Shown here: positions 52,804 through 61,414 of the stretch, in pieces
Layout of the letters: each line of letters opens with the position of its first letter
Numbering within the stretch: position 1 is the first letter of the stretch
Assembly: GCA_030418115.1 (NCBI GenBank)
Contig: JAUHQD010000012.1
Coordinates: 1 to 64,000 of the forward strand
Source: Alteromonadaceae bacterium BrNp21-10
GTDB taxonomy: Bacteria > Pseudomonadota > Gammaproteobacteria > Enterobacterales > Alteromonadaceae
Direction: 5' to 3'
Length of the DNA stretch: 64,000 nt
Notes under the pieces: generated by a model
What the model saw: only the letters and a program-made list of their open reading frames with translations
Database searches by the model: none
What the model was told of the DNA's origin: nothing
Translations under genes and position numbers: made by a program

Positions 52804-52811
52804 GTTAAAGA

Positions 52812-53204
52812 ATGAAAAAATCACTTTTAATTTTAATCAGTTACCTGAGTATTTCTTTTATGGCTAATGCTGAACAACAAACTATTGAAGCTGGTGGCTT
52901 TGTCCACAGTGTGTATTTTTGGCTGAATAACCCCACCGATGCCGCTGATCGTGATGCCTTTGAACAGCATCTCAGCAAATTTATCAATGCCTCTGAATTT
53001 GTCAAAAGTAAGCACATCGGCACCAGAGCAACATCCGATCGCGATGTTGTCGATAGCAGTTACGATTACACTTTAGTGGTGACCTTTGATAGCAAAGCTG
53101 AGCAAGATAAATATCAAACAGAACCTGTACATTTGACCTTTGTAAAGGATGCCGCGCACCTATGGAAAAAAGTAGTGGTGTATGATTCACAAAGTATCTT
53201 GTAA
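52812..53204 (+). CDS. Exported Dabb-domain protein
   Basis: Dabb (dimeric alpha/beta barrel) domains are small folds known from stress-responsive and polyketide-cyclase proteins. The 130 residues carry a signal peptide (ending FMANA-E), unusual for this normally cytoplasmic fold, and FVHSVYFWLNNP plus DYTLVVTFDSKAEQDKYQ match the domain. It directly follows the GH9 gene and may be cotranscribed. Function is unknown. Confidence 0.75.
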   Translation: MKKSLLILISYLSISFMANAEQQTIEAGGFVHSVYFWLNNPTDAADRDAFEQHLSKFINASEFVKSKHIGTRATSDRDVVDSSYDYTLVVTFDSKAEQDKYQTEPVHLTFVKDAAHLWKKVVVYDSQSIL

Positions 53205-53259
53205 ATTCACAAAACTGTGCGAAGCTAGCGCCATTATTTGATGTGCTAAATTCCTCAAA

Positions 53260-53649
53260 ATGAAAACTTGGTTGTACCGGCTCGGGTCGCCACTGCGCTA
53301 CCTGAGCAGCAAAAGGCAAGGCGTAAAAGCGCAACTTAAGCAACAAATGCTACGCATAAAAGCCGCGTTACGTCAGGAAACGGCTGAAACCAAGATCATG
53401 CTCAAAACCTATCGAAAGTATACCCAAGGTACGGCCAGCTATGAAGAAATGCAGCTGGCTAACTTGCAATTTGTTGAACTGGTTAAGAGCCTTGGCATTG
53501 GTGTGGTGGCGGTACTGCCGTTTTCGCCTATCACCATTCCATTAGCGATTAAATTAGGTCGCTGGGTGGGTGTGGATATTTTGCCGAGTTCCCTCTCAAC
53601 GAGCAAAAAACCACCAGCCCCTGTAGACATCCCCCCCAACAACCCCTAA
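53260..53649 (+). CDS. Small LETM1-like protein
   Basis: The 129 residues have a basic, helical N-terminal half with QLKQQMLRIKAALRQETAETK and a hydrophobic segment (LGIGVVAVLPFSPITIPLAIKLG, about 90-112), then a Pro-rich tail. The FVELVKSLGIGVVAVLPFSP pattern is that of LETM1-like ribosome-binding or membrane proteins. No signal peptide is seen. It ends 14 nt before the stop of the convergent exporter gene. The name is tentative. Confidence 0.6.
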   Translation: MKTWLYRLGSPLRYLSSKRQGVKAQLKQQMLRIKAALRQETAETKIMLKTYRKYTQGTASYEEMQLANLQFVELVKSLGIGVVAVLPFSPITIPLAIKLGRWVGVDILPSSLSTSKKPPAPVDIPPNNP

Positions 53650-53663
53650 CGCTCTAGCGTGTT

Positions 53664-54611
53664 TTAACGAACATTAACCTCGATTGTCACGTGGGATAAA
53701 TGCGGCAGATGATTTAATAAAAGCTGTTTATAATCATCAACAGCGAGTGGCTTAGCTGAAACGACTGATAAGATAGCCGCATTATGGGAAGTGCCTAGCT
53801 TCCAGAAATGAATATCCTCAATGCTGGTATTATTGGCATTGTTGAAATCATCGACAATTTTGTCAATGGCGCCGCTATGCACGGTTTTATCTAATAACAC
53901 ATCACCCGACTCTTTAATCAATCCAATTGACCATTTAGCGATCACCACTGCACCAACGATCCCGACCACGGCATCCATCCAAATCCAACCAAAATACTTA
54001 CCCGCCAGCAAGGCGACTATGGCTAATAACGACGTTAAGGTATCGGCTAGCACATGAAAATAGGCCGCTTTCATATTATGATCCTGATGCCCATGTTTAT
54101 GATGCTCTGCATCATGTCCATTATCGTCATGCTCATGATGATGGTGGTGATGGTCGTCATGTAACACCAACACTGACACCACATTAACCACTAGGCCAAT
54201 AACGGCCACAGCTATGGCTTCATTAAAATGGATGGTTTGCGGCTCAATCAGTCTTTGTAGGGATTCCACTATCATCATCAACGCCACAATGGCTAATGCC
54301 ACAGCACTGGCGAATCCACCTAAATAATTAACCTTGCCAGTACCAAAACTAAAACCACGATTATGGGCATGTTTTTGCGCATAGGAATAAGCAAACAAGG
54401 TAATCAAGAATGCGGCAGAATGTGTCCCCATATGCCAACCATCGGCGAGTAAGGCCATGGATCCAGACCAAGTTCCGGCTGTAATTTCCAACAACATAAT
54501 GATGGTGGTTAACCAAAATACAATTTTAACTCGGCTGGCGCCCTGTTGATTATCCATACCGAAATCATGGGAATGTGCCCATTGAATACTGCTGTCTTTT
54601 TGCTTTTGCAT
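53664..54611 (-). CDS. dmeF: CDF-family metal exporter (DmeF-like)
   Basis: Cation diffusion facilitators export divalent metals by proton exchange. The protein has an N-terminal HSHDF motif, six membrane helices, and the metal site pairs HMGTH (helix 2) and HVLAD (helix 5), which place His/Asp ligands. A His-rich cytoplasmic loop lies between helices 4 and 5 (DDHHHHHHEHDDNGHDAEHH). This matches DmeF, the cobalt/nickel exporter. ATG 54611 is likely; GTG 54617 is also possible. It is divergent from the RcnR-type repressor gene, which is the known DmeR-DmeF arrangement. Confidence 0.87.
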   Translation of the reverse strand: MQKQKDSSIQWAHSHDFGMDNQQGASRVKIVFWLTTIIMLLEITAGTWSGSMALLADGWHMGTHSAAFLITLFAYSYAQKHAHNRGFSFGTGKVNYLGGFASAVALAIVALMMIVESLQRLIEPQTIHFNEAIAVAVIGLVVNVVSVLVLHDDHHHHHHEHDDNGHDAEHHKHGHQDHNMKAAYFHVLADTLTSLLAIVALLAGKYFGWIWMDAVVGIVGAVVIAKWSIGLIKESGDVLLDKTVHSGAIDKIVDDFNNANNTSIEDIHFWKLGTSHNAAILSVVSAKPLAVDDYKQLLLNHLPHLSHVTIEVNVR

Positions 54612-54675
54612 CTGCACTAATCTTTCCAAATCAAACTATTTATCTTACACAATGGCATAACTGCCGACTTACCAA

Positions 54676-54694
54676 TATACTATACCCCAGTATA
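54676..54694. promoter_or_regulatory. Operator for the RcnR/DmeR-type repressor
   Basis: TATACT (54676-54681) and AGTATA (54689-54694) flank ATACCCC, giving TATACT-ATACCCC-AGTATA. The core TACT...GGGG...AGTA on the other strand resembles the E. coli RcnR site TACT-G6-N-AGTA. It lies 24 nt before the repressor ATG and about 65 nt from the exporter start, so both genes can be controlled. Confidence 0.75.
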
Positions 54695-54718
54695 CTAAAT
54701 TACAAATAAGGAATGAGT

Positions 54719-54994
54719 ATGTCACATACAGCAGCCAGCAAGAAAAAGTTACTCTCGCGAGTACGACGTATTAAAGGACAATCAGTGGCACTGGAAAAAT
54801 CTTTAGAAGGTGAGCCCGATTGCATGGGCGTGTTACAGCAAATCGCCGCCATAAAAGGCGCCGTAAATGGTTTAATGAAAGAAGTGATCGAAGATCATTT
54901 ACGTGAGCATCTTGGCGCCGCTGAATTAACTCAAATACAGCGCCAAGAAGAAGTAGAGCAAGTTATTAGTGTTTTGAAAAGTTACCTAAAATAA
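54719..54994 (+). CDS. Metal-responsive repressor of the RcnR/DmeR (CsoR) family
   Basis: A 91-residue all-helical repressor. I start at ATG 54719 because AAGGA sits 6 nt upstream; an ATG at 54713 is too close. With this start the metal ligands fall exactly where RcnR has them: His3, Cys35, His60 and His64 (MSHT, DC, DHLREH). That set binds nickel or cobalt; the Cys/His set of copper-sensing CsoR is not matched. It is divergent from the DmeF-like exporter. A formaldehyde sensor (FrmR) is less likely because His3 is present. Confidence 0.88.
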   Translation: MSHTAASKKKLLSRVRRIKGQSVALEKSLEGEPDCMGVLQQIAAIKGAVNGLMKEVIEDHLREHLGAAELTQIQRQEEVEQVISVLKSYLK

Positions 54995-55045
54995 TGGCTG
55001 GCGAGACCTTAATTGGATTAATAGGGGGAACTCAACCACGCTGAA

Positions 55046-56263
55046 CTAACTGCGAATTTGCATGCCATCGTGCAAAGTCATGCGGTAAGCACGGATAGCC
55101 GGCACAAATCCCACAACGATAATCGCAACCAGCAGTAACCCCAATAACTGCCATTCAGCTAAGCTAAGCATGGAGATCATTAACGGCATGCCCAACGATT
55201 GTTGCACTAAGGGAGCTGCAACAACTTGTGCGGCGTAAAATAAGCCAACTCCCAAGGCGCAGCCTAAACAACCAAGCAACAGCATTTCGCCCATTAATAA
55301 AGTGAAAATATGCCGCGGTGCGGCGCCCAAGGCGCGCAAAATCGCAAGTTCACGATGCCGTTGATGTAAATTAGTCAGGATATTGGTAAGCAAACCGATC
55401 AAGCCGGTAACCACCACCAACACACTCAATACCATTAGCCCTTTCTCAACTACCGACATTAAATTCCACAACTGCTGCAACGCCACTTGCGGTAAAATCG
55501 CCGTTAGCGGTTCAGGGGTAAATTCATTCAAGTCGCGGAGTAAATTCAATAACGAAAACTTTGAAGTTGCCCCCATTAACAAGCCACTAATTTTATCCGG
55601 CTGCTGATGGGCATCATGATGCTCTGCCGTGGCATGCATTTCCTCAATAGCCTGTAAGTCCACAAACAACCGTTTATCTACTGGGGTGCCAGTCATCGCT
55701 AAAATGCCCACCACTTTTAGCGGGTGCTGACGATGCTGACTAAAACTGCGTGCCGCTAGACCATGACTTAACACCACTTGGTCGCCCAACTGATAACCAA
55801 GCTTTTGCGCTACCATAGCACCGAGCACAACACCTTCATCATCGGTAAAAGCGCGACCTTGTTGAAACGATAGCGACGTTTTATTGGCAAACTGGCGGTA
55901 GATAAAGTAACTCGGCAAGGTACCCACAACACGATAGCCCTCATGGGAATCTCCAAAGGATAACGGCACCACCCATTGCACATCCGGCATATTTTTAATT
56001 TGCTGATAACTCTGCCAACTCATGCCATGATTTTGCTCAGCTAAATCAAACACTGTGGAAAGTAATAAGGTCAGTGGACTGCTGCGGGGGCCAACGATTA
56101 AATCAGTAGCGGAAATGGTTTGGGCAAAACCACTTTTTATTTGTTGTTGTAAGCGCTCAACCCCCAGCAACATCATCACGCTCATAGCAACCGCCAACAA
56201 ACTTAAGCCTAAGGTATAACGACGATTTAACAGGCTTTTAGTGGCTAAAGAAAGTAAAGTCAT
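55046..56263 (-). CDS. ABC transporter permease (FtsX/MacB type) with His-cluster loop
   Basis: The 405-residue protein has an N-terminal membrane helix (about 17-36), a large periplasmic domain and three C-terminal helices, the FtsX/LolC/MacB plan. The periplasmic loop contains MHATAEHHDAHQ (209-220; His210, 215, 216, 219). This resembles metal-linked ABC systems such as Vibrio Zrg transporters, but no ZrgA-type binding protein is next to it. The start overlaps the ATPase stop by 4 nt. Function as exporter or mechanotransmission partner is open. Confidence 0.8.
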   Translation of the reverse strand: MTLLSLATKSLLNRRYTLGLSLLAVAMSVMMLLGVERLQQQIKSGFAQTISATDLIVGPRSSPLTLLLSTVFDLAEQNHGMSWQSYQQIKNMPDVQWVVPLSFGDSHEGYRVVGTLPSYFIYRQFANKTSLSFQQGRAFTDDEGVVLGAMVAQKLGYQLGDQVVLSHGLAARSFSQHRQHPLKVVGILAMTGTPVDKRLFVDLQAIEEMHATAEHHDAHQQPDKISGLLMGATSKFSLLNLLRDLNEFTPEPLTAILPQVALQQLWNLMSVVEKGLMVLSVLVVVTGLIGLLTNILTNLHQRHRELAILRALGAAPRHIFTLLMGEMLLLGCLGCALGVGLFYAAQVVAAPLVQQSLGMPLMISMLSLAEWQLLGLLLVAIIVVGFVPAIRAYRMTLHDGMQIRS

Positions 56264-56955
56264 GATGACAAATCCCCATCTGCCAATACTAGTACTTGTT
56301 CAAAATAGTCCCGCAGTGACGGATCATGGCTTACAAACACCAAGGTCGCCCCTAACTCTGCGCTAGAAGCTATTAAGGTTTGCATAAAATCATCACGGTT
56401 TTGTGCATCCAAAGCCGATGTCGGCTCATCGGCAATGATAATTTGCGGCTGTAAGAATAACGCTCGTGCAATGGCCACTCGTTGCTGTTGACCAATACTC
56501 AAATGGCTGACGGGCTGCGTGTACAAAGACTCAGCAATATTCAGCTGCTGTAACACGCTCTTGGCTCGTTGCAAGCTTGCATTATTCGACATTGAATGAA
56601 TGGCAAACATGCCCGCTATTTGCACATTTTCCAATACATTCAAATAGGGTAATAAATTTAACTGCTGAAAAATATAACCAATATGCTGAGCACGAAAACG
56701 ATCTCGGGCACTAGCGGACATCATTTTTAAGGATTGTCCCAATAAACGAATATCGCCCTGTTGAATAGGGTGAATACCAGCTAACAAACCTAACAAAGTT
56801 GATTTGCCACTACCGCTAGCCCCTTGAATAAACAAGCGACCGCCTTGGGCAACCGATAATGCATCAATGCTGAGTAATGGCTTAGTGGATTTATTCTGAG
56901 CTGCTGGCCAAGTAAACTTCAATTGTTCTACTTTCAGCGCAATGGGGGTTGGCAA
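56260..56955 (-). CDS. ABC transporter ATP-binding protein (LolD/MacB type)
   Basis: The 231-residue ATPase has Walker A GASGSGKST (45-53), signature LSIGQQQRVAIARAL (about 158-172), Walker B IIADEPTSALD and a switch His in FVSHDPSL. It is of the LolD/MacB type and pairs with the downstream permease, overlapping by 4 nt. The OsmC-like gene lies about 66 nt upstream on the same strand. Confidence 0.92.
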   Translation of the reverse strand: MPTPIALKVEQLKFTWPAAQNKSTKPLLSIDALSVAQGGRLFIQGASGSGKSTLLGLLAGIHPIQQGDIRLLGQSLKMMSASARDRFRAQHIGYIFQQLNLLPYLNVLENVQIAGMFAIHSMSNNASLQRAKSVLQQLNIAESLYTQPVSHLSIGQQQRVAIARALFLQPQIIIADEPTSALDAQNRDDFMQTLIASSAELGATLVFVSHDPSLRDYFEQVLVLADGDLSS

Positions 56956-57021
56956 ACCGACGTTCCTTAAATAAAAATATCACTACAGCATTTCTTCAAT
57001 GCGTTAATAAGGTTGTTTATA

Positions 57022-57420
57022 TCAAGTTACTAACGAATGCACCACTGTCGTTCCAACTGTCATCAACTTCTGAATTGGGCATTTATCGGCAATGCCTGCC
57101 AACAGCTGACGTTGCTCGTCAGTTAACTCACCATTAAGCTTAAGGGAAACATTAAGCACATATATCCCCTTAGCTTCTTGGCTATTGTCTCGTTCGATAT
57201 CAACGTCAACACTGGTGAGAGGAATGTCTTTGCGTTTGGCGAACATTAACAACGTGATGGCTTTGCAGGCGGCTAGTGAAGTGTCATACAGATCATGGGG
57301 GTCGGGTGCGCTATCTTCCCCGCCTAGCACCAAACCTACATCAGCAAAAACAGTATGCTGATGAATACGAATGGTTTGACGATAAGTGCCGGTTTCACTT
57401 TTTTGTAAACTGATGGGCAT
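57022..57420 (-). CDS. OsmC/Ohr-family protein
   Basis: OsmC-family proteins are small thiol peroxidases against organic hydroperoxides. The two conserved cysteines are in AACKA and DKCPIQK. With the start at ATG 57420 behind a GGGGG ribosome-binding site the protein has 132 residues; the frame extends to a TTG at 57438. It follows the pirin gene by about 50 nt on the same strand, suggesting a redox pair. Confidence 0.85.
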   Translation of the reverse strand: MPISLQKSETGTYRQTIRIHQHTVFADVGLVLGGEDSAPDPHDLYDTSLAACKAITLLMFAKRKDIPLTSVDVDIERDNSQEAKGIYVLNVSLKLNGELTDEQRQLLAGIADKCPIQKLMTVGTTVVHSLVT

Positions 57421-57469
57421 CGAGGAGCCCCCACTCAAGTTGTTTAAAGGGTTCTATCGACTTCGATTA

Positions 57470-58384
57470 TTATTGGGGAAGAGGAATATATTCTTCTTCA
57501 TCATCCACCACTTTTGGAAAATTCCCTACTAACCAGTCTTGTTTAGCCTGCTCTATGCGTTTTTTACGGCTTGAAATGAAGTTCCACTCAATATAGCGTT
57601 TAGTCATTTTTTCACCGCCGATCAGTACAACTCTAGTTTCAGCAGTGGCTTCAATTGTTACCCCCTCAGCCGCCGATAAAATGACCATGGAAAATTCCGG
57701 TATGACTCTGTCTTTAATTTTTAACCCACCCTTAGCAACATAAATTGCACGCTCTTCACAATTAGGCAGTTCTAGGATTTGTCCAGCTTGCATATGTGCT
57801 TCCACATACAAGGTTTCTGCATAGGTTAAAACCGGTGAGGTCAGTCCATAAGCGCTGCCCATTAGTACTTTAAGTGGCACCCCATTAATAGTGGCGTTCG
57901 GAATACTGGCTGCTGGATAATGATAAAAAGCAGGGTCTATTTCTTCGTCTTTCTCTGGTAACGCTAACCATAATTGTAAACCGTGCAAAATATGGTCGAC
58001 ATTTTTTACTTCCGGCCGTTCTCGCTCTGAATGGGTAATGCCCCGCCCTGCCACCATTAAATTAATATCACCCGGTGTTATTGCCGCATGACTACCAAGG
58101 GAATCTCGATGCAGAATTTCACCTTCAAACAAATAAGTAACCGTAGCTAGGTTAATGTGAGGATGGGGGCGTACATTTATTCCAGATCCTGCCGGAAAAT
58201 TAGCTGGCCCCATATGGTCAAAGAAAATCCACGGCCCAACCATTTTACGCTCGGTGGTCGGCAACGAGCGACGCACCGAAAATTCGCCCAAGTCTTTTTC
58301 TCGTGGCTGAATAATAAGTTCAATTGCACCACAGCCCTGACTCATATCACAATCCAATTCTGTATTAGTGGTTTCTATACTCAT
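57470..58384 (-). CDS. Pirin family protein
   Basis: Pirins are double cupin iron proteins, some with quercetinase activity. The iron ligands are in HPHIN (two His), the later His in THSERERPE, and the Glu that follows. I start at ATG 58384, giving 304 residues. The frame continues to 58450 with a hydrophobic stretch (YYLAGIVIGLTTALTWITV) that is not part of the family, so I treat it as leader sequence. RFG-like C-terminal cupin half is present. It leads pirin-OsmC. Confidence 0.87.
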   Translation of the reverse strand: MSIETTNTELDCDMSQGCGAIELIIQPREKDLGEFSVRRSLPTTERKMVGPWIFFDHMGPANFPAGSGINVRPHPHINLATVTYLFEGEILHRDSLGSHAAITPGDINLMVAGRGITHSERERPEVKNVDHILHGLQLWLALPEKDEEIDPAFYHYPAASIPNATINGVPLKVLMGSAYGLTSPVLTYAETLYVEAHMQAGQILELPNCEERAIYVAKGGLKIKDRVIPEFSMVILSAAEGVTIEATAETRVVLIGGEKMTKRYIEWNFISSRKKRIEQAKQDWLVGNFPKVVDDEEEYIPLPQ

Positions 58385-58712
58385 GACCGTTATCCATGTT
58401 AAGGCGGTTGTCAGACCTATCACTATGCCTGCCAGATAATATTGTGGCAAATAAGGAATACATATTTATCGCAAGCGGGTGTCATAAATCACTTCTAACT
58501 ATGTTTTATTTTACCCATACCAACCTAAGTTAATACGTATTATTTAACACATCAACCAATACGACCAATTAGGTATCGTTGACGAAAGAGAATAACCACC
58601 ACTGTAGAACTCAGTATTTTAAAATTTAATCAATATTATCATTGGCTTAATTTAATTCATTATGCGATGGTAGTAATAATTTGAGCAAAACTTAATCAGA
58701 TTTACTTTACTT
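58385..58712. other. Noncoding gap between pirin and the small-gene cluster
   Basis: This 328-bp AT-rich gap separates divergent genes and should contain both promoters. I see no strong -35/-10 pair and no hairpin with a T run. The reading frame of the longer pirin start extends into its first 66 bases. Confidence 0.5.
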
Positions 58713-58871
58713 ATGTCTTATTCTAATTTCCACAGCCCCAGTTCCCGAAACGGTGATATCAGAGCCTCAAGAAGTCAACTTAACCGCTCCATGCTCGCTG
58801 CTAGCTTTAAAACCCAAACCGCATTAACCCAAAGAATTATCGAAAATAACACGGGGATCAGCAATGACTGA
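58713..58871 (+). CDS. Small unknown protein, 52 residues
   Basis: An open frame from ATG 58713 to TGA 58871 overlaps the start of the next gene by 8 nt. The product is hydrophilic, Ser/Arg/Asn-rich (SYSNFHSPSSRNGDIRASRS), with no membrane segment and no family I recognise. The ribosome-binding site is weak. The overlap suggests coupled translation with the next gene, but it could also be a chance frame. Confidence 0.4.
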   Translation: MSYSNFHSPSSRNGDIRASRSQLNRSMLAASFKTQTALTQRIIENNTGISND

Positions 58872-59148
58872 AAAATCCACCGGCAATAATTGGCACCGAT
58901 TAATATACCTAGGAGTCATTCTTTACGGAATACATTGGTTGTTGGTATACGGTTTTTCAGAATTACTGTTTTCAGAATGTAAGGACAATAACCCCAAATT
59001 TAATGCAACTGTATGTAGCTGCAAAACTGACCAGCTCAGAAGCACCTTTATAGTAGAAAGCTTTCTTATTGATTCCCTAACAGATGAGCAACGTAACAGA
59101 AACACAAGGGTGAGTCAGCTAATCAAAATTAATAATCAATGTCGTTAA
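58864..59148 (+). CDS. Unknown small membrane protein
   Basis: The 94-residue product has one membrane helix (YLGVILYGIHWLLVYGFSELL, about 15-35) and a Cys-containing remainder (ECKDNN, VCSCKT, NNQCR). A GGGG ribosome-binding site is 9 nt upstream. It lies in the overlap with the 52-residue frame and 13 nt before the zinc-ribbon gene. No family is recognised. Four cysteines on the far side of the helix could form disulphides if it is periplasmic. Confidence 0.6.
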   Translation: MTEKSTGNNWHRLIYLGVILYGIHWLLVYGFSELLFSECKDNNPKFNATVCSCKTDQLRSTFIVESFLIDSLTDEQRNRNTRVSQLIKINNQCR

Positions 59149-59161
59149 CTGAGGGTCTATC

Positions 59162-59461
59162 ATGTCTCATTTAGTACGCTGCTATAAATGCAATAAATGT
59201 GGGTTCGTAAATCAAGCAGAACCCAGCAATGCAAACTGTTCGGCTTGGTTTGGTTGTGACTTTGAAAAAGGAAAATTCAGTACCGTTGATGTTCCTTTGC
59301 AGGCAATTCGTAAAGAGGAAAAACAGAAAGAGGATAAAGAAAACCAAGACGGCGCATTTGCCCTTCTCTGGATAGGGCATGCCATTGTGGTTGGACTTTC
59401 CAAAGGTGCTGCAAAAGGTTTTCTAGCCCTGCTATTCGGGCCATTTATGTGGTTTTTTTAA
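59162..59461 (+). CDS. Unknown small zinc-ribbon-like membrane protein
   Basis: The 99 residues begin with Cys-rich CYKCNKCGFVNQ, with Cys26 and Cys32 (NCSAWFGC) behind, a pattern like a small zinc ribbon. A Lys/Glu-rich hinge follows, then a hydrophobic C-terminus (ALLWIGHAIVVGL, GFLALLFGPFMWFF). GAGGG lies 8 nt before the ATG. A terminator follows the stop. I recognise no family. It is the last of three consecutive small genes. Confidence 0.6.
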   Translation: MSHLVRCYKCNKCGFVNQAEPSNANCSAWFGCDFEKGKFSTVDVPLQAIRKEEKQKEDKENQDGAFALLWIGHAIVVGLSKGAAKGFLALLFGPFMWFF

Positions 59462-59462
59462 A

Positions 59463-59494
59463 GTAGGCCAGCTTTATGCTGACCTACTCTTTTT
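59463..59494 (+). terminator. Terminator of the small-gene cluster
   Basis: GTAGGCCAGC (59463-59472) pairs with GCTGACCTAC (59478-59487) with one mismatch, followed by TCTTTTT. The stem shares the GCCAGC...GCTG sequence with the mdh and TonB-receptor terminators. Confidence 0.8.
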
Positions 59495-59521
59495 AATGCA
59501 GAATATACCCAAATACTATTT

Positions 59522-61414
59522 TTATAATTCCAAACTAACCATATTACCTTTGCTCTCTAACCATTCCTTGCGATCGGGTGAGCGTTTTTTCGAGAGCAAC
59601 ATATCCATAAGCTCCATCATTTGTACCGAATCATCGATGGTCAGTTGCACCAAACGCCGAGTGTTAGGATCCATGGTGGTTTCGCGCAATTGTAAGGGAT
59701 TCATTTCACCCAAGCCTTTGAAACGTTGAACGTTAACTTTGCCGCGTTTTTTCTCGGCCTCAATACGATCGAGAATACCCTGCCTTTCGCTTTCATCGAG
59801 CGCGTAATACACATCTTTACCTACATCGATACGGAACAATGGCGGCATGGCCACATACACATGGCCCTGATCGACTAAGGTGCGGAAGTGACGCACAAAC
59901 AAGGCACATAACAAGGTTGCTATATGCAACCCATCGGAGTCAGCATCTGCCAGAATACAGATTTTTCCGTAGCGTAAATCGGTTAAATCGGTGGAATCTG
60001 GATCTATACCCAAGGCCACTGAAATGTCATGAATTTCTTGTGATGCCAGCACTTGTGAAGAATCTACTTCCCAGCTATTTAGGATCTTACCTCGTAACGG
60101 CATAATGGCTTGGAATTCACGGTCGCGCGCTTGTTTGGCTGAACCACCGGCTGAATCCCCTTCCACTAAGAACAATTCTGAGCGGGTAATATCTTGGGTT
60201 GAACAATCGGTTAACTTACCGGGTAAGGCTGGGCCTTGAGTGACTTTTTTACGGGCGACTTTTTTGCTTTGACGCAAACGTTTTTGCGCATTGGCAATAC
60301 ACATTTCCGCTAATTGTTCGGCTAAATCAGTATGTTCGTTCAACCATAAACTAAAGGCATCTTTCACCACACCAGAAACAAAGGCTGCTGCTTGGCGCGC
60401 GGATAAACGCTCTTTAGTTTGACCGGCAAATTGCGGATCTTGCATCTTGGTTGAGAGCACGTAACAGCAGCGATCCCAAATATCCTCTGGGGTGAGCTTT
60501 ACCCCACGTGGTACTAAATTACGGTATTCACAAAATTCACGCATGGATTCCAATAACCCCTGACGCAGACCATTAACATGGGTTCCGCCTTGAGCAGTGG
60601 GAATCAGATTCACATAACTTTCGGTGATCATTTCACCACCTTCCGGTAGCCACATTACCGCCCAATCGGCAGCTTCGTTATTGGCTGAAAAAGCACCGAC
60701 GAAAGGTTCTTTTTCTGGTAAACATTCATACTCTTGCACGGCTTGGTATAGATAATCTTTTAAACCATCTTCAAAATACCATTCCTGCGTACCGCCATTC
60801 ACTTTATCGTCAAAACGAATGCGCAAACCCGGACATAACACCGCCTTGGCGCGCAATACGTGCAGTAATTTAGAAACCGAAAATTTTGCCGAGTCAAAGT
60901 ATTTAGGATCTGGCCAGAAGCGTACTCTAGTACCAGTATTGCGTTTACCGCAGGTATCAATAATAGCTAAGTCTTCAATTTTATCGCCATCACCAAAAGC
61001 AATTTGATAAACATTACCATCGCGACGAATAGTCACTTCAACGCGAGTAGACAGTGCATTTACCACTGAAATACCGACGCCATGCAGACCACCGGAAAAC
61101 TGATAATTATTGTTGGAGAATTTACCACCAGCATGCAATTTAACCATGATCAATTCAACACCGGATATGCCTTCCTCCGGATGAATATCCACCGGCATAC
61201 CACGACCATCATCAATAACTTCAATGGATTGATCGGCGTGCAGCACTACCTTAATATTGGTGGCGTGGCCAGCCAATGCTTCATCAACGCTGTTATCGAT
61301 GACTTCTTGGCTAAGATGGTTGGGTCTGGTGGTATCGGTGTACATGCCTGGACGGCGTTTTACCGGTTCTAGACCATTAAGAACTTCAATGGAGTCGGCG
61401 TTATATTGAGTCAT
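59522..61414 (-). CDS. parE: DNA topoisomerase IV subunit B
   Basis: ParE is the ATPase subunit of topoisomerase IV, which unlinks daughter chromosomes. The GHKL ATPase has IDDGRGMPVDIHPEEG and SGGLHGVGISVVNALS, and the TOPRIM domain has LFLVEGDSAGGSAKQARDR and LADADSDGLHI. The 630-residue length and the missing insert in the TOPRIM region distinguish it from GyrB. It is followed downstream by the converging small genes and preceded by yqiA. Confidence 0.97.
   Translation of the reverse strand: MTQYNADSIEVLNGLEPVKRRPGMYTDTTRPNHLSQEVIDNSVDEALAGHATNIKVVLHADQSIEVIDDGRGMPVDIHPEEGISGVELIMVKLHAGGKFSNNNYQFSGGLHGVGISVVNALSTRVEVTIRRDGNVYQIAFGDGDKIEDLAIIDTCGKRNTGTRVRFWPDPKYFDSAKFSVSKLLHVLRAKAVLCPGLRIRFDDKVNGGTQEWYFEDGLKDYLYQAVQEYECLPEKEPFVGAFSANNEAADWAVMWLPEGGEMITESYVNLIPTAQGGTHVNGLRQGLLESMREFCEYRNLVPRGVKLTPEDIWDRCCYVLSTKMQDPQFAGQTKERLSARQAAAFVSGVVKDAFSLWLNEHTDLAEQLAEMCIANAQKRLRQSKKVARKKVTQGPALPGKLTDCSTQDITRSELFLVEGDSAGGSAKQARDREFQAIMPLRGKILNSWEVDSSQVLASQEIHDISVALGIDPDSTDLTDLRYGKICILADADSDGLHIATLLCALFVRHFRTLVDQGHVYVAMPPLFRIDVGKDVYYALDESERQGILDRIEAEKKRGKVNVQRFKGLGEMNPLQLRETTMDPNTRRLVQLTIDDSVQMMELMDMLLSKKRSPDRKEWLESKGNMVSLEL

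Follow-up and report, generated by a model that had tools for sequence, protein, structure and literature searches.

A putative regulator stub, a rare small membrane protein and an orphan frame beside parE in an Alteromonadaceae genome

Closest described systems and layout of the run

Passages of a preprint (PMC13370339) present CZB domains as redox-linked zinc sensors, and the words "operon" and "small membrane" are absent from these passages. Chemoreceptors with CZB domains and CZB-linked diguanylate cyclases are among the systems closest to the locus considered here, a run of three small frames (P1, P2, and P3) in the window, the 64,000-nucleotide stretch analyzed as a whole. A CZB chemoreceptor gene and a gene for a GGDEF protein flank a homologue of P2 in Alteromonas facilis, but the triplet of the window includes no CZB or GGDEF gene and P2 has no CZB domain. 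P1 is like regulators of the HTH-membrane-TPR type in their first two helices, with an ungapped match over residues about 11 to 45, but is without the recognition helix, the membrane part, and the TPR part. P3 shares CxxC-type cysteine spacing near the N terminus with rubrerythrin-type zinc-ribbon proteins, from which it differs by a second half of the form C-x5-C and by a hydrophobic C terminus in place of an enzyme domain. The nearest relatives of P2 are two homologues that share its length, its one membrane helix, an IHW/LHW motif, EC(K/R), CxC, a final CR, and an overlap with the preceding gene; they differ from it in sequence (30 to 35% identity) and in their neighbors, which are others in each genome, and no P3 was seen beside them.

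A sequence-only reading had described three frames of 52, 94, and 99 codons lying in one run, with overlapping or short gaps and one terminator, and all of these features were confirmed on the plus strand of the window, which belongs to a genome of 4.2 Mb in 33 contigs. P1 (58713-58871; 52 aa) overlaps P2 (58864-59148; 94 aa) by 8 bases, and P2 is separated by a gap of 13 bases from P3 (59162-59461; 99 aa). The run is flanked on one side by a pirin gene (57470-58450, minus strand) and on the other by a gene (59522-61414, minus strand) that we take to be parE, with strong matches in all four relatives examined as support. Ahead of P1 lies an AT-rich leader (58451 to 58712, plus strand; 29% G+C) in which no sigma-70-like site was found on the plus strand. 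Directly after the stop codon of P3, a strong intrinsic-terminator-like hairpin with a T run is predicted (59462 to 59494, plus strand); the hairpin itself (59462-59488) is followed by CTTTTT and has an energy of -14.7 kcal/mol (z = -3.77), and none of 200 shuffles was equally stable. This hairpin was missing from the list returned by a pattern scan. Shine-Dalgarno-like sequences precede the starts of P2 (GGGGA) and P3 (GAGGG), and none was seen before the start of P1. No Rfam match was obtained for 58300-59700, the repeats or mobile-element ends around the run amounted to short two-copy matches and short inverted pairs, and the genome held no second copy of the region longer than 28 bases.

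The length of P1 is uninformative because plus-strand open reading frames of at least 52 codons occurred in 49% of 3000 shuffles of the region; frames of at least 94 codons occurred in 3.1%. Codon-use z values were 1.78 for P1, 0.50 for P2, and 3.19 for P3; identical scoring of seven further genes in the window gave 4.6 to 15. P3 had the best codon use of the six frames at its place; at the place of P2 another frame scored higher, and the codon adaptation index of P2 (0.58) fell under those of all 27 reference genes. Searches of Pfam, NCBIfam, PHROGs, and PADLOC returned no family of usable significance for any of the three frames, and the XRE-type Pfam models HTH_31 and HTH_3 gave weak matches only. 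The earlier statement that no family is recognized thus stood for these libraries but not for P1, which a dedicated profile placed as an HTH fragment. The three frames do not make up a single system with three genes of equal standing. Rather, in anatomy and origin, the run is probably a small remnant of accessory genes, located next to parE in an interval of variable content.

P1 and the HTH-membrane-TPR regulators

A class-wide search with P3 and P1 gave a weak P1 match (E = 0.009) in 1 of 369 genomes (G820), and the matched frame reads as an HTH domain and is a true member of the HTH family. Another weak match from this search, in genome G965, lay opposite a long cation-pump-like frame and was dropped. 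The same kind of HTH opens a 674-aa HTH-membrane-TPR protein of Aliiglaciecola lipolytica (L046, 3475-5496), whose gene directly adjoins the operon carrying the P2 homologue, and a search of 59 relatives with the A. lipolytica HTH added a 677-aa regulator from one of them (G022; L075, 7984-10014). When a profile was built from these two regulators alone, with the G820 sequence left out, P1 ranked first (24.4 bits; E = 2.1e-6; next segment, E = 7.9) among 1370 stop-to-stop segments drawn from the window plus a further 16 kb outside it, a count in which the first 10 kb of the window enter twice. P1 reached 25.1 bits versus at most 8.9 bits for its shuffles (5000 made, 4817 reported), and it stood directly behind the true members among 5448 segments of 77 loci, a set from which 6 copies of the window region were left out and in which some other loci overlap each other. 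Overall, P1 scored 24 to 25 bits against the N-terminal HTH profile, with E values of 2e-6 to 5e-6. The A. lipolytica regulator was spotted by eye among about 12 neighbors of the P2 homologue, after the G820 match; the E values obtained with it carry some selection, and a 100-fold correction still leaves 2e-4.

Judged from these profile matches, P1 corresponds to the N-terminal portion of an XRE-like HTH domain and is a regulator fragment. It ends at residue 52, before the recognition helix of the XRE fold, and with this domain content it would not be able to act as a DNA-binding protein. P1 is probably the remaining N terminus of an HTH-membrane-TPR transcription regulator that has lost its recognition helix, its membrane helix, and its TPR part. 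No match to the TPR part of the G022 regulator was found in the genome of the window (0 of 1), and an origin of P1 by frameshift was rejected, as there was no HTH continuation in the other frames. The A. lipolytica regulator is divergent from the P2 operon and P1 lies upstream of P2 on the same strand; therefore, a deletion alone does not account for this arrangement. Further members of the HTH family were absent from plasmids, phages, and viral contigs; 234 class genomes held just the one already known, and a PDB sequence search with the HTH alignment gave 4 weak matches (best E = 0.22).

A stub of this kind may have been kept as a translated leader, with ribosomes that end at its stop codon restarting on P2 and so setting the amounts of P2 and P3. 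The 8-base stop-start overlap is consistent with such a role, as are the 4-base overlaps between P2 homologues and the unrelated genes preceding them in two further genomes and the fact that P1 is open from its own ATG with positive, though weak, codon use; but P2 comes with a GGGGA site and no ribosome site is visible before P1, such that coupling may be needless. We consider this explanation possible but doubtful.

P2, a small membrane protein with four invariant cysteines

Homologues of P2 were found in 2 of 394 other family genomes, those of Alteromonas facilis P0213 (NZ_PEAY01000002.1) and Aliiglaciecola lipolytica E3 (NZ_BAEN01000023.1), with 31% and 29% identity and an E value of 7e-11; they are 99 and 92 aa long, compared to 94 aa for P2. 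Nineteen columns are invariant in all three members, including C39, C51, C53, and C93, which are the only four cysteines of P2. A single membrane helix (residues about 11 to 31) precedes a cysteine-containing helical domain, in agreement with the initial description of a single-helix protein with several cysteines. When the profile was derived solely from the two homologues, it recovered P2 at an E value of 1.9e-17, the next segment being at 0.62. The initial search of the family genomes matched 65 genomes at E values up to 1, and the 62 matches other than the own genome and the two homologues were weak, mostly broken frames, and taken as chance. In the family genomes the P2 profile returned the same three members only. 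Among 394 order genomes there was strong support for the window's own copy only. Six genomes were matched in that search, and the five weak matches (E values of 1.5e-4 to 0.009) were all dropped, the best of them running across the start of a LysR-like gene. Two further weak matches to the P2 profile (E values of 0.007 and 0.009) were left out, and viral contigs contained no P2 match. The traits of the family (one membrane helix, four invariant cysteines, and about 95 aa) are all present in P2; the family was defined here from its three members, so this agreement describes P2 as much as it tests it.

P2 is taken as a gene because of this homology and not because of the coding statistics, and on that basis it is a real, intact gene. 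The suggestion of recent gene decay is supported for P1 only, as the stub of an HTH regulator. It could still be argued that the entire run is decaying, P2 and P3 being intact only because loss is recent and none of the frames having a present function; P1 is a stub, the codon use of P2 is poor, and P2 and P3 are both absent from the one genus mate examined. Yet P2 is full length and has kept all invariant residues, ribosome-site-like sequences stand at P2 and P3, and a strong hairpin closes the run, all of which makes decay of the whole a reading that we hold to be rather unlikely.

The best AlphaFold model of P2 showed a long first helix followed by further helices (pLDDT of 71.8; other four models, 54 to 60). 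The structure-based homology search that had been proposed gave nothing useful for this model, either in a fold search of the PDB (best E = 3.7) or in a second fold comparison (best Z = 4.0; 53 residues aligned; rmsd, 3.0), and a PDB sequence search with the P2 alignment returned 0 matches. CrgA was rejected as a candidate family for P2, with scores of 13.3 bits (cutoff, 24.8) and 15.4 bits (cutoff, 102), both confined to the region of the membrane helix. P2 would span the inner membrane once, with the short positive N terminus facing the cytoplasm and the helical domain lying outside, where the four conserved cysteines would hold the domain together, probably as two disulfides. Its translation may be helped by the overlapping upstream frame. 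The start of P2 or its homologue overlaps the preceding frame in all three loci, by 8 bases in the window, by 4 bases with the CZB chemoreceptor gene in A. facilis, and by 4 bases with a 266-aa gene without assigned function in A. lipolytica.

In A. facilis the TPR-GGDEF protein is encoded downstream, such that the P2 homologue is embedded by overlap between it and the CZB chemoreceptor (L045, 7731-10998); no further Pfam sensor domain was present in this chemoreceptor. The operon-like run of A. lipolytica (L046, 5699-10471), which diverges from the HTH-membrane-TPR regulator, comprises genes for a DUF676 hydrolase, a 438-aa lipoprotein-like protein, the 266-aa protein, the P2 homologue, a 238-aa protein, and a 217-aa lipoprotein-like protein. 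In G022, the HTH-TPR regulator is divergent from a gene for a CsgG-like lipoprotein and a DUF900 hydrolase gene (L075, 4762-10017), and a hydrolase gene and a lipoprotein-like gene next to an HTH-TPR regulator thus recur in A. lipolytica and G022.

The neighbors of P2 differ in all three loci, so the link of P2 to signaling rests on one locus. Since CZB domains are described as zinc sensors with a link to redox (PMC13370339), a redox or zinc input is the role favored for P2 from that locus. Within envelope signaling, P2 would most likely serve as a small component, either accessory or redox-sensitive, although we put forward a signaling or redox role only tentatively. The proposal of a small membrane-linked system received weak support: P2 is conserved and is a membrane protein, but it has other partners in each genome, and P3 has no relative. 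A broader reading, which we think quite unlikely as a whole, is that P2 would found a new family of small membrane components that carry four cysteines on the outer side and serve as a shared redox input; that, through stop-start overlaps, such components would be fitted into sensing operons of different kinds (one with a zinc-linked chemoreceptor and a diguanylate cyclase, one with lipoprotein genes and an HTH-TPR regulator, and here one with a zinc-ribbon membrane protein); and that the truncated regulator P1 would have been retained as the coupling leader of P2.

P3 and the variable interval beside parE

P3 has cysteines at C7, C10, C13, C26, and C32, which form an N-terminal CxxCxxC...C(5)C pattern, followed by a charged linker and a hydrophobic C terminus. 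Its description as a zinc-ribbon-like membrane protein was upheld for the cysteine pattern but less so for the remainder, as the hydrophobic stretch is marginal (Kyte-Doolittle value of 1.64) and broken by SKGAAKG, and no match to a known zinc-ribbon family passed its cutoff; the best, to a rubrerythrin ribbon (NCBIfam NF045767; E = 0.21), was not significant and was rejected. The zinc ribbon of P3 is, as far as its residues tell, a cysteine pattern only. P3 may be made from the same message as P2 and may be a zinc-ribbon protein held on the inner membrane face by its hydrophobic end.

No homologue of P3 was found in 59 relatives, 395 family genomes, or 369 class genomes (the own genome being counted in each), nor in plasmids (two matches, E values of 5 to 7) or phages. 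Scans of genome_contigs and of viral contigs, which seek exact short peptides first and reach close relatives only, gave none either. A PDB sequence search with P3 returned 0 matches, and the single-sequence model was poor (pLDDT of 59.5). With no homologue in any of these sets and with such a model, P3 might be a chance open frame and P2 the sole real gene of the run; but the codon use of P3 is the best of its six frames, and the frame has a GAGGG site, ribbon-like cysteine spacing, and a terminator directly after its stop codon. On balance, we regard a chance origin of P3 as unlikely. Conservation of the triplet in related genomes, which the sequence-only reading had wished to see checked, was not observed: the genomes searched held no other copy of the triplet, but P2 is conserved as a protein.

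The triplet sits at the parE end of the interval between a glycosyl hydrolase 9 gene and parE (52804-59521), and the genes downstream of parE differed from those of the window in all four relatives examined (G001, G002, G146, and G222). In the genus mate G001, a gene related to this hydrolase gene (68% across 358 aa) lies about 4.8 kb from parE, compared to about 6.7 kb here, and P2 and P3 are absent from this genome; distances and contents differ, and thus the cargo of the interval differs between the two genomes. The counterpart interval (L041, 1111-5876) carries a DUF2975 gene and a pirin-like gene, together with genes that we take to be a TSUP-like transporter, a DoxX-like gene, a LysR-like gene, and a small XRE-type gene. 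Near the variable site of the window, a cation-efflux gene with a His-rich loop is divergent from a gene for a CsoR-type metal-sensitive repressor (53664-54994).

The variable site beside parE, the small size of P2 and P3, and the hydrophobic end of P3 would also suit a small toxin-antitoxin or defense pair. PADLOC, which covers known defense systems, gave 0 matches for P1, P2, P3, and both P2 homologues, PHROGs gave no significant match, and the homologues of P2 lie among signaling and lipoprotein-like genes, not defense genes; we consider such a pair very improbable.

The find is modest overall, comprising one truncated regulator, one rare membrane family, and one orphan. A "gene of unknown function," P1, has been resolved into a regulator fragment, and a rare family of small membrane proteins with a clear conserved core, present in none of the four family libraries scanned, has been defined around P2. 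Should P2 prove to be a portable redox component, its association in A. facilis with a CZB chemoreceptor and a diguanylate cyclase would offer a direct setting for testing how outside signals reach such systems; otherwise, the run would add another example of the turnover of accessory genes next to a core gene.
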